NCBI GenBank assembly: GCA_008081395.1
Contig: VMCJ01000020.1
Span: 1-41,689, forward strand
DNA from: Rhodospirillales bacterium
GTDB lineage: Bacteria; Pseudomonadota; Alphaproteobacteria; Bin95
Length of the DNA: 41,689 bases
Direction of reading: 5' to 3'
The notes beneath the pieces were generated by a model. It was not told the DNA's origin and did no database searches. It was given only the letters and a program-made list of their open reading frames with translations. Shown in pieces: positions 24,782 through 30,313 of the stretch. Both the position numbers and the translations under genes were made by a program. Numbering within the stretch: position 1 is the stretch's first letter; each line of letters opens with the position of its first letter.

Positions 24782-25582
24782 ATGCCCGAAACTTTGACAT
24801 CAACCGATAGCTCCTTCGTTCTTCGCGAAGATCAGTCCGGTATAGCGATTTTAACCCTGAATAGGCCAGAGAAGCGAAATCCCCTTTCCGAAGGTATGCT
24901 TAAGCAGCTCACAGAGATTTTAAACGATATCAATGACGAACCTGCGGTACGGGTAGTTATTCTTTCTCATACAGGTCCGTCATTCTCCGCTGGGCACGAC
25001 CTAAAAGAGGTGCGGGCCAACCAATCCGTTCAATACTATAACTGGTTGATGAATTTGTGTTCCAATTTAATGCTGAGTATCGTCCGCCTTCAAAAACCTG
25101 TGATAGCGGCAGTTGAAGGTGTCGCTACCGCTGCGGGTTGCCAGCTCGTAGCATCCTGTGATCTCGCAATAGCGGGTGAAAATGCAAGTTTTTCGACTCC
25201 GGGTGTAAATATTGGTCTTTTCTGCTCTACCCCGATGGTGGCGCTTTCACGGAATGTTGCTTCCAAGCATGCTATGGAAATGCTGCTCACAGGCGATCCA
25301 ATAGATGCAAAAGAAGCGGCTCGTATTGGTCTGATAAATCGCGCAGTTACCGCTGGTACTGCTTCCGCTGAAGCATATCAATTGGCTTTAAAGATCGCAT
25401 CTAAGTCAGCAATGACACTCCGTATTGGTAAGGAAGCGTTTTATCGACAGCAGGAAATGCAGCTTGATGTTGCTTATTCTTTTACTTCGGAAGTCATGAC
25501 AACAAATTTAATGGCGGAAGACGCAGGTGAAGGCATAGATGCTTTTATCGAAAAACGTTCGCCGCAATGGAAAGATCGATAG
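24782..25582 (+). CDS. Crotonase-fold protein, ECHDC3-like, altered active site
   Basis: The 266-residue protein has the enoyl-CoA hydratase fold: SAGHDLKEV (69-77) supplies the first oxyanion-hole segment, and VATAAGCQLVASCDLAIA (114-131) the second. However, the two glutamates used by crotonase (Glu144 and Glu164 in the rat enzyme) correspond to Gln121 and Gly141 here, within GCQL and STPGVNIGL. The wording TAAGCQLVASCD and GVNIGLFCSTP strongly recalls vertebrate ECHDC3. It may bind an acyl-CoA or perform a non-hydratase reaction. Divergent from a thioesterase and 12 bases ahead of an LLM oxidoreductase, with which it is probably co-transcribed. Confidence 0.88.
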   Translation: MPETLTSTDSSFVLREDQSGIAILTLNRPEKRNPLSEGMLKQLTEILNDINDEPAVRVVILSHTGPSFSAGHDLKEVRANQSVQYYNWLMNLCSNLMLSIVRLQKPVIAAVEGVATAAGCQLVASCDLAIAGENASFSTPGVNIGLFCSTPMVALSRNVASKHAMEMLLTGDPIDAKEAARIGLINRAVTAGTASAEAYQLALKIASKSAMTLRIGKEAFYRQQEMQLDVAYSFTSEVMTTNLMAEDAGEGIDAFIEKRSPQWKDR

Positions 25583-25594
25583 AAAGGTTTTCGT

Positions 25595-26545
25595 ATGCAG
25601 ATTGGTGTTCAAGTTCCTCATCGTGGGCCAATGACGGATCCAGCTTGTATCCAGGCGATCGTCTCAGAGGGAGAAGCCCTAGGATATGAAGTATTGATTG
25701 TATCCGACCATATTGTCGTTCCAAAGGATATCGATAGTAGGTACCCGTATTCTGAAGCTGGTGATTTTCCAGGCCGTGTGGGCGGCGAGTGTATGGAACA
25801 GCTTACCTTGCTAGCTTACGTGGCCGCGATGACCAAAAAGGCAAAGCTCCTTACATCTGTAATGGTCGTGCCGCACAGGGAACCTCTTTTGGCAGCTAAA
25901 TCTTTGGCAACAACGGATCAGCTTTCAGGTGGTCGATTGATCGTTGGTTGTGGAACTGGTTGGATGAGAGAAGAGTTTGACGCGATTGGAGCGGACTTTG
26001 ATAATCGTGGCGCTGTAACCGATGACTACATTCGAATTTTTAAAAAGGTATGGACAGAGGATGACCCCCAGCATTCAAGTCAGTGGTCAACCTTTTCCAA
26101 TATTGCTTTCAGGCCTCAGCCTCTTCAAAAACCTCATCCTCCCATATGGATTGGGGGCGAGTCAGGTAGAGCACAGCGCCGCGTCGCAGAGTTAGCGGAC
26201 GGCTGGTACCCACTTGGGGCCAATCCTCGTCAGCCCTTAGATACACCCGATCGATACCTAGCTGCACGCGATCAGCTTTGGAAGAAGGTTGAGGCTGCGG
26301 GCCGTAGCCCAGAAGATATTACTCTTGCTTATAATGCACCTTTTCACTTTTCCGAAGAGCAGAAGAACCGTGAGGGAACTCGACAATTCTTGACGGGCTC
26401 TGCTCAGGCAAGAGCAGATGATTTGAATGCCTTAAAAGACATTGGGGTATCCACTGTTGTCATTTCGACAGCTGGAACAACACTAGAGAAAACCTTAGAC
26501 CGCATGCGAGAATTTCAGGAGAATGTGCGGCCATTGATGTCTTAG
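25595..26545 (+). CDS. LLM-class flavin/F420-dependent oxidoreductase
   Basis: The 316-residue product is a luciferase-like monooxygenase-family TIM barrel. Markers are EALGYEVLIVSDHIVVP (28-44), LAAKSLATTDQLSGGRLIVG, GTGWMREEFDAIG and the C-terminal-side PHPPIWIGGES followed by RRVAELADGW. The pattern resembles the TIGR03619 group usually annotated as F420-dependent, but F420 or FMN use cannot be told from sequence alone. AAAGG stands seven bases before the ATG. It follows the crotonase-fold gene closely and converges on the MFS gene to its right. Confidence 0.87.
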   Translation: MQIGVQVPHRGPMTDPACIQAIVSEGEALGYEVLIVSDHIVVPKDIDSRYPYSEAGDFPGRVGGECMEQLTLLAYVAAMTKKAKLLTSVMVVPHREPLLAAKSLATTDQLSGGRLIVGCGTGWMREEFDAIGADFDNRGAVTDDYIRIFKKVWTEDDPQHSSQWSTFSNIAFRPQPLQKPHPPIWIGGESGRAQRRVAELADGWYPLGANPRQPLDTPDRYLAARDQLWKKVEAAGRSPEDITLAYNAPFHFSEEQKNREGTRQFLTGSAQARADDLNALKDIGVSTVVISTAGTTLEKTLDRMREFQENVRPLMS

Positions 26546-26600
26546 CCCTTGAGCAATCTCTAGCTTGGTCAGACGCAAAAGTTGATTCTCCAAGTTGGTA

Positions 26601-26629
26601 TAGGCTCAACCGGCTGTCTGTTGAGCCTA
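26601..26629. terminator. Ten-base-pair hairpin at convergent gene ends
   Basis: TAGGCTCAAC (26601-26610) and GTTGAGCCTA (26620-26629) form a perfect 10-bp stem with a nine-base loop between the convergent LLM and MFS genes. Its right arm contains the MFS stop codon. No T-run follows on either strand, so it could be a factor-assisted terminator or an RNA-stabilising 3' structure. Confidence 0.4.
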
Positions 26630-27865
26630 GTATTTGGTTGCAGCCCGTTTAAGCTCAGGTACGGTCCAAAAGATTGCAACTGGGATACAAATGGCGGTTA
26701 AGGACCAAGCAATCACCATAATGTAGCCATCGGTCAAATCGTGGATTACACCGCCCATCGTTGCTCCAACTGCTGCCCCAGCACCCATACAGAGGAAAAT
26801 CGCGCCCATAATTAATCCAAGATCTCGTCCACGGCCAAAAATTCTTGCTGTGAGTGCGGAAATTACGGGGCCACGACTTCCGAAACTCGCGCCGTACGAA
26901 ATAACAAAAGCCCAGAGTAGAAAATTTGACGGACTAACTGTCATCATGAAGAGAAGTAAATACCCTGATATCGTTAAGCTGTAGGACAATGTTACTGAAA
27001 GCAGAGCACCATACCTATCCGCGATTATTCCGAAAATCAGAAGACCACAAGTTGCAGAAATTCCAGAAACACCAAAAGCGCTTGCTGCTGTTATCGGATT
27101 AGTGCCTTGCTCAATGAGAAAAGCGACAACTTGGGGTTGAACGGCAAACATTGATATTGCTGTAAGAAAATGAACTGCTGACAAACACCAGTAAGGCCTA
27201 GAACGAACCGCACGGCGAAAAGTCCAATCAGATGTTGGAGAGTGTCTACCTTCTGTTTTCGGTCGTCGAAGGTCTGCCCGGCCTTCAGAAATTTTTTGCC
27301 ATGGAGCAATTGCCACAAGTATGCCAACGCAAATGACAATCAGTCCAATTGAGCTGTAAGCATTTCGCCAACCAAGATCATCAATGAAAGTTTGGGCTAC
27401 AGGAGAAAAAATCATGACTCCAACGCCAGCTGCACCTGACACTACAGCAACTGCAGTGGTTAAAGATTGCTGAAACCATCGGGCTAGTAATGCGGATTGC
27501 ACCGCAATACCAAGCGCTGCTGCTCCGAACCCCACGAGGAGGCTTAAGCACAGATAAAATTGCCATAGCGCTTCAAGTTGTGAGGCTAAAATTGGTCCTA
27601 CAGCAAGGCATCCCATTCCCAGGGGAAAGAGAAATCTTGGTCCAAACTTATCAAATAGCTTACCTGCAACCGGAGAAAAAAGCCCAAGGCAAAGCATTCC
27701 AAAAGCGTATACACTGGCTGCCTCCGCTCTGCTCCATCCAAGTTCTTTACTGACCGGAAGAAGGAAGACGGCAAAAGTCTCAGATACACCTCGTGCAGAG
27801 GCACTCATCAATACAAAAACGGCAGCAGCTAAAAATCCGAGGTTAAACCGATGATGCAGGGTCAA
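26627..27865 (-). CDS. MFS transporter (monocarboxylate/OFA-like)
   Basis: The 412-residue protein has about twelve hydrophobic helices and the MFS loop motif GKLFDKFGPR between helices 2 and 3. N-terminal helix 1 (FNLGFLAAAVFVLMSASARG) with SKELGWSRAEAASVYAF resembles monocarboxylate/oxalate-formate-type carriers. The start is a TTG at 27865 that overlaps the TGA of the ThDP-enzyme beta subunit gene, so translation is probably coupled; no clear ribosome-binding site is seen. The context suggests it imports the substrate or exports the product of the decarboxylase encoded just upstream. Substrate is inference only. Confidence 0.85.
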   Translation of the reverse strand: MTLHHRFNLGFLAAAVFVLMSASARGVSETFAVFLLPVSKELGWSRAEAASVYAFGMLCLGLFSPVAGKLFDKFGPRFLFPLGMGCLAVGPILASQLEALWQFYLCLSLLVGFGAAALGIAVQSALLARWFQQSLTTAVAVVSGAAGVGVMIFSPVAQTFIDDLGWRNAYSSIGLIVICVGILVAIAPWQKISEGRADLRRPKTEGRHSPTSDWTFRRAVRSRPYWCLSAVHFLTAISMFAVQPQVVAFLIEQGTNPITAASAFGVSGISATCGLLIFGIIADRYGALLSVTLSYSLTISGYLLLFMMTVSPSNFLLWAFVISYGASFGSRGPVISALTARIFGRGRDLGLIMGAIFLCMGAGAAVGATMGGVIHDLTDGYIMVIAWSLTAICIPVAIFWTVPELKRAATKY

Positions 27866-28473
27866 CGCGGTGGCATGCCAAGATATTCCCGAAAGCGGGT
27901 TTTCAAAAATGCCCCGTCCTGTGGAGGTAAAGACATTCCAGCTGCTTCTGGACTAATATGAACAGCAGCGAAGGCAGGGCCCTGCACAGATTGCATCCAA
28001 TCGCGGAGTTCTGTGGCTTCTTCGGTGCTATCAATTCTCCGGGTTGATTTAAAGCCTAATCCTACGGCGGTTTGCACCAAGTCTACCCCGCGCGCAGTAT
28101 GAGTTAACTGCTGCCCAGTTTCACCGTACCTTCCATTGTCTAATACGATTACTACCAGATTATCCAGGCCTTCCGCACCAGCTGCTGCAAGTCCAGTGAG
28201 GCCCATGAGAACCTCGCCGTCTCCGGTGAGCGCTAAAACGCGTTTGGTTGGTTGTGCTGCAGCTAGACCAATTGCCATTGGCACTGCTCCACCCATTGCG
28301 CCCCAAAGGTAAAAATTTAGTGGGTGGTCTCCAGCAGCCATCAGGTCGTAGCAAGGTGATCCAAGTCCGGCTACAACAAGCAGATCATCAGATCTGTCGT
28401 GCATTAGATTTGCCACTAAAATACGCCGATCTATTAGACCATCTGACTTCTTGATTATTTCAGGGGCACTCAT
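27862..28473 (-). CDS. ThDP-dependent decarboxylase, beta subunit (ComE/Ppd-like)
   Basis: The 203-residue product is a stand-alone ThDP-binding C-terminal half of a decarboxylase. The diphosphate/metal motif begins at GDGE (84-87) and closes at LDN (111-113), followed by GRYGETGQQ, as in sulfopyruvate decarboxylase ComE and phosphonopyruvate decarboxylase. The preceding LWGAMGGAVPMAIGLA is also characteristic. I chose the ATG at 28473 because it overlaps the stop of the alpha-subunit gene (ATGA); the open frame upstream lies inside that gene. Together the pair would decarboxylate a 2-oxo acid. Whether the substrate is sulfopyruvate, phosphonopyruvate or another is not determined. Confidence 0.85.
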   Translation of the reverse strand: MSAPEIIKKSDGLIDRRILVANLMHDRSDDLLVVAGLGSPCYDLMAAGDHPLNFYLWGAMGGAVPMAIGLAAAQPTKRVLALTGDGEVLMGLTGLAAAGAEGLDNLVVIVLDNGRYGETGQQLTHTARGVDLVQTAVGLGFKSTRRIDSTEEATELRDWMQSVQGPAFAAVHISPEAAGMSLPPQDGAFLKTRFREYLGMPPR

Positions 28474-29024
28474 TGTTTGTTGTCTCCTGCACTTCCTGCT
28501 GCAAATTTCTTCGTGCCAACTAACTTCTGCGCCAATAATACGGCAGTCATGCAATCACCATTGTATGCTTGGTCAATGGCTGCCCGCACTGTGTCAGCTA
28601 CATCCTCTGCGCGTTCAACTCTGTAACATTTTACTCCGGCTAACTCGAAATGAGCCTGTGTAGTACCTCCCATTGGCATTTGCCACGAGTTGAACTCACC
28701 CCACTCACCACGCATCGTCACAAACATTGGCATGGGAAATCTGCAAGTGGTCATAAGGCTCAGCATGTTGATTGTGTTTCCAACCCCACTGGATTGCATC
28801 AGCAACGCACCCTTATCACCGCCCAACCAAGCACCTGCTAGACAGGCTACGGCGTCTTCTTCAGTAGTAACTGAAATTGCGCGCATCTCATTAGCAGCGT
28901 GGGCGCGCTCAATAAGCTTTTTGTGGCCAGCGTCGGGTACATAAGCAATTTGTTTTATCCCGGCATTAACTAGGGCTTCAAAAATATCATCCCGCCAGTC
29001 GTGGGTCATTTCAGCATCTGTCAT
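28470..29024 (-). CDS. ThDP-dependent decarboxylase, alpha subunit (ComD/Ppd-like)
   Basis: The 184-residue product is the pyrimidine-binding N-terminal half of the same enzyme. It has TTEEDAVACLAGAWLGG (53-69), whose glutamate (Glu55 or Glu56) should activate the ThDP aminopyrimidine. QSSGVGNTINMLSL (77-90) and RGEWGEFNSWQMPMG (105-119) follow, like the SGLGN and RGxxGE...PMG blocks of sulfopyruvate decarboxylase ComD and phosphonopyruvate decarboxylase. First gene of a three-gene unit alpha-beta-MFS with overlapping stops and starts. No xsc, ppm or sulfolactate dehydrogenase gene is in view, so the pathway is open. Confidence 0.85.
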   Translation of the reverse strand: MTDAEMTHDWRDDIFEALVNAGIKQIAYVPDAGHKKLIERAHAANEMRAISVTTEEDAVACLAGAWLGGDKGALLMQSSGVGNTINMLSLMTTCRFPMPMFVTMRGEWGEFNSWQMPMGGTTQAHFELAGVKCYRVERAEDVADTVRAAIDQAYNGDCMTAVLLAQKLVGTKKFAAGSAGDNKQ

Positions 29025-29086
29025 CGTTAACTCAATAAGATTAATATGAACCCTGACTTTTACACGAGGCTGTTCTAGACCGCCAT

Positions 29087-30313
29087 ATGTCTAACCGCAT
29101 GACCGATATGCCTGAAGCGCTTGTCCGGGAAGCAAACGCTTTGAGTTGGCCATCCGTAAGGATTAGTTTTTATTACATTGCGATGTTTGGAACCGTTGGA
29201 GTTTTTGCACCTTTCCTTCCAATTTGGCTAAAGGACCGAAGCTTATCAGCAGAAGAAATCGGGATAGTGATGTCTGCAATCGCTTGGACCCGAGTAATGG
29301 TCAATCCACTTGCTGCACACGTCGCAGATGTAACTGGGCGACGTAGAAGATTGGCATTAATGACTGCAGCTGGGGCTTGTGTGGGTTTGGGATTTGTAAC
29401 GCAGTCTTATGGGTTTTTTGCTATTTTAGCGGCACTGATTTTTACAGCGGCTTGCCAAGGTCCCGTTTTACCTGTTGGTGAGAATCTTTGCTTACTCACT
29501 ATTAGAGCCCGTAATTTGTCGTATGGACGACTACGTGCATGGGGCTCGGTCGCTTTCATCGCGGTAGTTACTGGCGCCGGCTATTGGCTCGAGACCGCTC
29601 CATCAGATCACGTGATTTACATGTTAATTGGCGGCTGGCTTTTGATCCTGTTTTCGGTAGCTTGGTTGCCTGATCTTCGATCTCCGCCACGGGGCAAGAA
29701 AGAAAGAAGGTTTCAAGCAGCTCCTGCATGGGCTCTACTTCGCAATAAAACATTCATACTGCTGCTAGCTGCGGCAGCCGCTAATATGAGTTCACATGCA
29801 GTTTTGAATGCCTTTTCATCAATTCACTGGATTGGCGCAGGGATTAGTGAAAGCTCTATTGGCTATCTTTGGTCTATCGGAGTTTTGGCTGAGATAATTC
29901 TTTTCTGGATGGCGGCTCCAATCGTTGCACATCTGGGGCCCGGTTGGCTTATGGCCCTTGGTGCTGCTGGAGGTGTTATTCGATGGATTGGCTTGGGTTG
30001 GACAACAGATTTTTACGCACTTCTTTTCTTTCAAACGTTGCATGGATTGACCTTTGGCGCCGCTCATTTAGGGGCGATGACATACCTTCAACGACATGTC
30101 CCAGCTGAGAGCTCTGCAACAGGTCAAGCGCTATACTCTGCTCTCGGAATGGGAGCTGCTTTGGCTTTAATGCAGCCAATTGCGGGCTGGCTTTATGCTA
30201 AAAATGGAGGCGGCGCTTTTTATGCAATGGCTATCTTGGCGGCAGTTGGATTTTTATTCGCAGTATTGCTCGCTTTCAGACTAAGGAAAATTGACCAAAA
30301 TAGTCCAACCTAA
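29087..30313 (+). CDS. MFS transporter, HcaT/MFS_1-like family
   Basis: The 408-residue protein has about twelve membrane helices. The N-terminal segment SFYYIAMFGTVGVFAPFLPI followed by WLKDRSLSAEEIGIVMS and loop motif ADVTGRRRRLAL match the HcaT-type (3-phenylpropionate/PPP family) carriers. GRLRAWGSVAFI in the middle is another family feature. The gene is divergent from the ThDP-enzyme unit across 62 bases, so the two could share regulation. Transported compound unknown; related proteins are proposed for aromatic acids, sugars or nucleosides. No adjacent catabolic gene narrows this. Confidence 0.87.
   Translation: MSNRMTDMPEALVREANALSWPSVRISFYYIAMFGTVGVFAPFLPIWLKDRSLSAEEIGIVMSAIAWTRVMVNPLAAHVADVTGRRRRLALMTAAGACVGLGFVTQSYGFFAILAALIFTAACQGPVLPVGENLCLLTIRARNLSYGRLRAWGSVAFIAVVTGAGYWLETAPSDHVIYMLIGGWLLILFSVAWLPDLRSPPRGKKERRFQAAPAWALLRNKTFILLLAAAAANMSSHAVLNAFSSIHWIGAGISESSIGYLWSIGVLAEIILFWMAAPIVAHLGPGWLMALGAAGGVIRWIGLGWTTDFYALLFFQTLHGLTFGAAHLGAMTYLQRHVPAESSATGQALYSALGMGAALALMQPIAGWLYAKNGGGAFYAMAILAAVGFLFAVLLAFRLRKIDQNSPT

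Follow-up and report, generated by a model that had tools for sequence, protein, structure and literature searches.

Which acid is consumed by a split thiamine diphosphate (ThDP) decarboxylase whose genes overlap that of a carrier of the major facilitator superfamily (MFS), and does the carrier supply it? The question is raised by a 41,689-nucleotide stretch of DNA from a Rhodospirillales bacterium (the window), which is contig C11 of draft genome G000 (2.57 Mb in 176 contigs, 96.29% complete). An original prediction, made from the letters of the window, had called the two decarboxylase subunits ComDE-type, after sulfopyruvate decarboxylase, and had added that they may act on another 2-oxo acid that the transporter imports or exports. 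Our analysis supports the second suggestion: we favor, with a probability of roughly 0.6, a non-oxidative 2-oxo-acid decarboxylase that is probably fed by MFS carboxylate uptake and that uses neither sulfopyruvate nor phosphonopyruvate. The parts of this reading differ in strength. It is very likely that the reaction is the non-oxidative decarboxylation of a 2-oxo acid to an aldehyde, and nearly as likely that the substrate is neither sulfopyruvate nor phosphonopyruvate, whereas an import role for a carrier is about an even call.

Alpha and beta represent the PYR half and the PP half, respectively, of a single ThDP enzyme, as judged from Pfam, AlphaFold2 (mean predicted local distance difference test score 90.7 for alpha and 95.2 for beta) and Foldseek. 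The first Foldseek match of alpha was AzcB (3.3e-15), followed by RhiE (3.1e-9) and then the wider ThDP superfamily; that of beta was RhiF (2.1e-13), again followed by the wider superfamily. Alpha carries the motifs VPDAGH (with D31 and H34), QSSGVGN and TMRGEWGEFNxWQ together with the ThDP-activating glutamate E55, and beta carries GDG-E (residues 84-87) and DN..YGETGxQ (with E118), G84-D85-G86 and N113 being present. The pair thus has the marks of a two-subunit ThDP decarboxylase, namely separate PYR and PP genes side by side, an activating glutamate in alpha and GDG...N in beta, and the claim of a split ThDP decarboxylase is supported. The two subunits would assemble, probably as an alpha2beta2 heterotetramer in the manner of RhiEF, into a single ThDP enzyme that would decarboxylate a 2-oxo acid non-oxidatively and yield the aldehyde.

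The label ComDE-type did not survive comparison with curated families. Against the two ComDE models, alpha scored 116.6 bits (TIGR03845, cut-off 147.95) and beta 128.1 bits (TIGR03846, cut-off 221.5), and against TIGR03297, the model for AepY/Ppd (cut-off 312.5), beta scored 100.8 and alpha 63. The best NCBIfam match of beta, NF004813 (PRK06163, 'hypothetical protein'), likewise fell short, at 136.7 bits with a cut-off of 240. A FastTree phylogeny was built from 153 distinct alpha-beta pairs (158 minus 5 duplicates) and rooted on fused AepY-like proteins. It took only loci at which alpha and beta were both called side by side, so that several were lost, among them those of the window's family in G001, G010, G008, G013 and G012 (L062, L065, L069, L074, L075). 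The outgroup of eight comprised three ComDE-like pairs, two of them from comE-annotated records, and five fused AepY-like proteins, three of them from aepY-annotated records; the rest came from L115, L116 and L117. The other 145 of the 153 pairs, the window included, formed a separate clade with support of 1.00, distinct from the known enzymes, and within it the window falls in a subclade of 11 pairs (support 0.98). Identity of the window pair was 28% to the ComDE pairs over the joined alignment and 29-30% to two AepY proteins. The original prediction would have been refuted by a grouping with some known decarboxylase that has its full pathway encoded elsewhere in the genome, and this was not the outcome.

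The clade and the outgroup are also told apart by two motif residues. Alpha has VPD in 145/145 clade pairs and VPC in 8/8 outgroup pairs, and the residue of beta that precedes TG is glutamate in 142 of the 145 clade pairs and serine in all eight of the outgroup. The histidine of the H34 column is found in 134/145 clade pairs, and the Asp, His and Glu set is complete in 134/145. All 153 pairs keep the catalytic alpha glutamate and the beta G-D, and the last glycine of GDG is kept in 141/145 pairs of the clade. Printed structure alignments show VPC in RhiE, STG in RhiF and VPD in AzcB. In pyruvate decarboxylases, according to an excerpt of a published study, D28 and E477 (yeast numbering) influence decarboxylation, and positions 476/477 are part of the S-pocket or border it (PMC3534367). 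From motif spacing and the pyruvate decarboxylase motifs, alpha D31 would correspond to position 28 and beta E118 to position 476 or 477. Asp31 and His34 of alpha and Glu118 of beta, standing in place of Cys and Ser, would therefore form a residue set more like that of pyruvate decarboxylase. Since the Cys/Ser pair of the sulfopyruvate and phosphonopyruvate enzymes is replaced in this way, we would deny the window pair action on those two acids, and with pyruvate-decarboxylase-like acids at these positions the clade should act on 2-oxo acids that have no sulfonate or phosphonate head and set free the aldehyde. Membership of the window pair among ComDE, Ppd (AepY) or RhiEF was rejected on scores, tree, motifs and genome content.

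A divergent MFS gene of the HcaT-like kind, which lies beside alpha in 10 of the 11 pairs of the window subclade, is the best-kept neighbor; it is adjacent also at the lost loci L062, L065, L069, L074 and L075, and gene clustering found it in 15 loci (families f1, f12 and f95). For the neighbor test, 144 clade pairs without duplicate contigs were collapsed at 70% identity to 64 representatives, and the MFS set came from an iterated search that started from the window MFS and includes HcaT-like proteins. Because the tests were made after the neighbors had been viewed and took their labels from the neighbor proteins, the statistics are descriptive: MFS genes occupied 30/581 positions at most two genes away and 4/1021 at four or more before collapse, and 13/355 at most three genes away and 1/243 at six or more after it (p 0.007), and aldehyde dehydrogenase genes occupied 14/355 and 0/243 of the same near and far positions (p 6e-4). 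The corresponding near and far counts were 13 and 0 for LysR, 10 and 1 for acyl-coenzyme A (CoA) dehydrogenase, and 8 and 1 for CoA-transferase (p 0.06), and over the same distances no enrichment was seen for MaoC, CoA ester lyase, MmgE or alpha-hydroxy-acid oxidase. The flanking MFS carriers would most likely import a carboxylate that is, or becomes, the substrate.

Alpha and beta genes each occur three times in the genome. A second copy on contig C3 (L104:10751-13185) reads MFS-alpha-beta and is followed by a class III CoA-transferase gene, and this order of MFS, alpha and beta recurs in three relatives of the genus. The third alpha (C137, L103) has no beta and lies beside genes for DctM, an Ldh_2 dehydrogenase that scores as malate/lactate/ureidoglycolate dehydrogenase (339.3, cut-off 336) and PEPCK, and the third beta (C40, L009) has no alpha and lies between a glutathione-synthetase-like gene and TauD.

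Several observations weigh against the reading of a carrier-fed 2-oxo-acid decarboxylase. On the side of the carriers, the operon MFS adjoins beta in just four genomes, all of one genus; its homologues, found in 37/385 genomes of the class, have LLM, FAH and oxoprolinase genes as neighbors at some of the loci that were read; and the HcaT-like gene, present in 63/385 class genomes, lies mostly away from alpha-beta by comparison of coordinates. The two neighbor statistics are post hoc, and collapse at 70% leaves some shared ancestry among the representatives. The window locus itself has no adjacent aldehyde dehydrogenase gene, in one relative (L118) the HcaT-like gene has a gene of the TauE/SafE sulfite exporter family next to it, and the Asp/His/Glu set is incomplete in 11/145 members of the clade. 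We know of no biochemically studied member of the clade, which makes the residue logic indirect.

The limited linkage of the carriers leaves real room for the view that the MFS genes lie there by chance or for regulatory reasons, or encode exporters, with no supply role for the decarboxylase, a view that we consider somewhat less probable than uptake. It has on its side the confinement of the operon MFS to one genus and the mostly unlinked homologues of both carriers; against it stand the overlap by 4 bp in the window, the adjacency seen in each of the four genus genomes with the pair, the recurrence of MFS neighbors in separate branches of the clade, and the second MFS-alpha-beta set on C3. 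The operon MFS was set aside as the conserved partner, its adjacency being limited to one genus and the divergent HcaT-like MFS being better kept. The transporter link that had been proposed therefore holds in so far as MFS genes are enriched beside the clade, but the particular MFS that was named adjoins it in one genus only.

The substrate might instead be an unusual acid of the kinds that AzcBC and LumKL decarboxylate, for example an alpha-imino acid or a heteroaryl carboxylate. AzcB is the protein in the PDB closest to alpha by sequence and by fold and shares its VPD in place of VPC, and LumKL is, in an excerpt of a 2025 paper, a two-subunit quinoxaline carboxylate decarboxylase (PMC12746152). 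Identity of alpha to AzcB is, however, just ~27-28%, beta is nearer to RhiF than to AzcC, and no ring-degrading gene set was recognized beside the window pair, so that we regard this alternative as unlikely.

We rate lower still the idea of a divergent sulfopyruvate (or phosphonopyruvate) decarboxylase whose pathway is incomplete in the draft genome. TIGR03845 and TIGR03846 are indeed the nearest families that bear a function, RhiEF supplies the best PDB match of beta, some clade members are named 'phosphonopyruvate decarboxylase' in databases (others 'thiamine pyrophosphate-binding protein'), a TauE-family gene stands in L118, and at the stated completeness genes may be missing. Against this, all cut-offs were missed, the clade is separate, the Cys/Ser pair is replaced, and identities to ComDE and AepY do not exceed those given above. 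The lack of partner genes noted in the original prediction holds for the window and extends genome-wide for Xsc and a phosphonate-type PEP mutase: in the 96.29% of the genome that is represented, no Xsc protein rose above its cut-off (best score 238.3 bits, cut-off 676.4), and none of the four proteins of the phosphoenolpyruvate (PEP) mutase superfamily passed a phosphonate-mutase cut-off among matches at E<=1e-60, one of them being over the prpB cut-off, two matching prpB best but below it, and one being unmatched at E<=1e-60. Equally improbable is a ThDP carboligase or lyase that does not release an aldehyde, since, for all that Foldseek also matched acetolactate synthases, pyruvate oxidases and 2-hydroxyacyl-CoA lyases (as the superfamily predicts) and that CoA-transferase and acyl-CoA dehydrogenase genes lie near many relatives, the two-subunit ThDP relatives found with a named function are decarboxylases and aldehyde dehydrogenase genes are enriched beside the clade.

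For the 2-oxo-acid decarboxylase that we favor, the relatives offer a wider setting. Alpha-beta relatives also occur on many plasmids. In a recurring plasmid cluster (L164, L169, L179 and L180) the pair lies beside an aldehyde dehydrogenase gene, and genes for CaiB, acyl-CoA dehydrogenase, MaoC and CoA ester lyase are in the vicinity; plasmids with this set of genes were found in Haematobacter, Bosea, Mesorhizobium and Sinorhizobium. A Shinella plasmid has alpha-beta with tricarboxylate transporters, MmgE/PrpD and aconitase, a Sphingobium plasmid has an alpha-hydroxy-acid oxidase near the pair, and a plasmid of a peanut Bradyrhizobium (L176:2236-6585) has genes for a Glu/Leu/Phe/Val dehydrogenase and an aldehyde dehydrogenase divergent from it. 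Such neighbors suggest that the relatives shorten carboxylic acids by one carbon, and they say nothing direct about the substrate of the window pair. A tentative extension, which we think more likely wrong than right, is that the clade is a general bacterial module for such shortening and the window a carrier-coupled version of it. The route would lead from a 2-hydroxy or amino acid to the 2-oxo acid, through decarboxylation by alpha-beta to aldehyde dehydrogenase, and might continue with CoA-transferase, acyl-CoA dehydrogenase, MaoC hydratase and CoA ester lyase. A substituted 2-oxoglutarate degraded via itaconyl- or mesaconyl-CoA would fit some of the clusters. The neighbors on the peanut Bradyrhizobium plasmid, together with peanut chemistry, gave the idea of a possible 4-methyleneglutamate breakdown, for which a search of the literature found no support.

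The clade is common. Beta matched at E<=1e-40 in 79/385 alphaproteobacterial genomes, and a scan of species genomes gave at least 590 pattern matches, at least 587 of them confirmed (80 of these stretches were kept), with many Bradyrhizobium and Burkholderiales among the matches listed. An excerpt of the 2025 paper on LumKL calls two-subunit thiamine pyrophosphate decarboxylases rare, with rhizocticin and coenzyme M biosynthesis as the sole earlier examples (PMC12746152). On the counts obtained here, that remark on rarity looks wrong. No characterized member of the clade was recognized in the literature, a search that mostly lay outside subscription journals and hence is weak evidence of absence. 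If the module exists, two-subunit ThDP decarboxylases of a large clade that has been overlooked serve carboxylic acid shortening across bacteria. The clade points to a carboxylate pathway that has so far lacked an assignment. The contrast of VPC and STG with VPD and ETG is, in addition, a simple way to keep the clade out of sulfonate and phosphonate gene counts in environmental surveys.

Some other gene sets were seen at these loci. In genus g2 (L107, L109, L110, L111, L112) a pyruvate-dehydrogenase-like E1 alpha/beta pair directly precedes another alpha-beta pair, and at L063:9442-9816 of the same genus a 124-aa protein with no Pfam match at E 0.01 directly follows beta. The comE-annotated records L170 and L171 have histidinol-dehydrogenase-like, alpha-hydroxy-acid oxidase and universal stress genes alongside.

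Table 1 Features of the decarboxylase locus, in window coordinates.
Feature	Coordinates	Strand	Details
Alpha subunit (PYR half, N-terminal ThDP domain)	28470..29024	-	184 aa; PF02776 E 1.6e-7
Beta subunit (PP half, C-terminal ThDP domain)	27862..28473	-	203 aa; PF02775 E 3e-19
Operon MFS, MCT / oxalate-formate type, downstream, same direction	26627..27865	-	412 aa; PF07690 E 1e-42
Divergent MFS_1_like (HcaT-like) carrier	29087..30313	+	PF12832 E 1.9e-61; 62 bp from alpha start
Intergenic region separating divergent genes	29025..29086	.	alignment of 4 genus members

The overlapping alpha, beta and MFS genes were confirmed where they had been placed, by open reading frames, Pfam and an order (alpha-beta-MFS) kept in three other genomes of the genus, G002, G003 and G001 (beta identity 90, 78 and 74%). 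They had been described as fused, which is apt for the operon-like overlap of the genes (4 bp each for alpha-beta and beta-MFS, the former being ATGA), but there is no fusion of proteins. Beta starts at ATG 28473, which gives 203 aa; a TTG start that gives a 230-aa reading frame is probably too early. The operon MFS frame has a TTG start within the beta stop, and the alternative start at ATG 27808 leaves a 53-bp gap. Against NCBIfam this MFS passed no cut-off (scores and cut-offs: SfMCT 149.5/320, bile_salt_MFS 102.4/400, the two best matches, and 2A0111 88.6/374.85), and the HcaT-like MFS narrowly missed NF008346 (241.5 bits, cut-off 259). The intergenic region may be a shared regulatory region; its sequence is little conserved, with no conserved operator in the alignment of the four genus members, and a scan of 26400-29300 for a sigma-70-like site and an Rfam search of the region were both empty. 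Convergent with the operon MFS, positions 24782-26545 of the window encode an enoyl-CoA hydratase (PRK08139) and an LLM oxidoreductase (TIGR03619), both over cut-off; in other genomes, too, LLM and FAH genes are found close to MFS homologues. The genome has a rich set of ThDP enzymes, with 20 PF02775 matches in its 2.57 Mb.

How does the pair compare with known systems? NF004813 (PRK06163), the best NCBIfam match of beta, is a family with no assigned function. ComDE, sulfopyruvate decarboxylase (records of Leisingera and Sulfitobacter), shows the same split in adjacent, overlapping genes but belongs to another clade, the window pair being below its cut-offs and 28% identical over the joined alignment. 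AepY/Ppd (TIGR03297) has the same two domains fused in one chain, with VPC and STG, and aepX adjoins in 2/3 of the records read. LumKL, likened here by its description in an excerpt of the paper that reports it (PMC12746152), is a two-subunit ThDP enzyme in a catabolic cluster, the quinoxaline carboxylate decarboxylase of riboflavin breakdown, but is actinobacterial and part of an aromatic ring pathway. AzcBC, by entry title a TPP-dependent alpha-imino acid decarboxylase (PDB 9u8q, 9u8r, 9u8s), is two-subunit like the window pair, and AzcB, the best PDB match of alpha, shares its VPD; identities of 27-28% for alpha and 22% for beta do not, however, make both subunits close relatives. RhiE and RhiF, the tested subunits of a phosphonopyruvate decarboxylase according to an excerpt of a review (PMC12141560), make up RhiEF (PDB 9iz3/9iz4): like alpha and beta they are two small proteins, one PYR and one PP, and RhiF is the best PDB match of beta, but they carry VPC and STG where the window has VPD and ETG, and in the Foldseek alignments to 9iz4 identity is 20% for alpha and 24% for beta.

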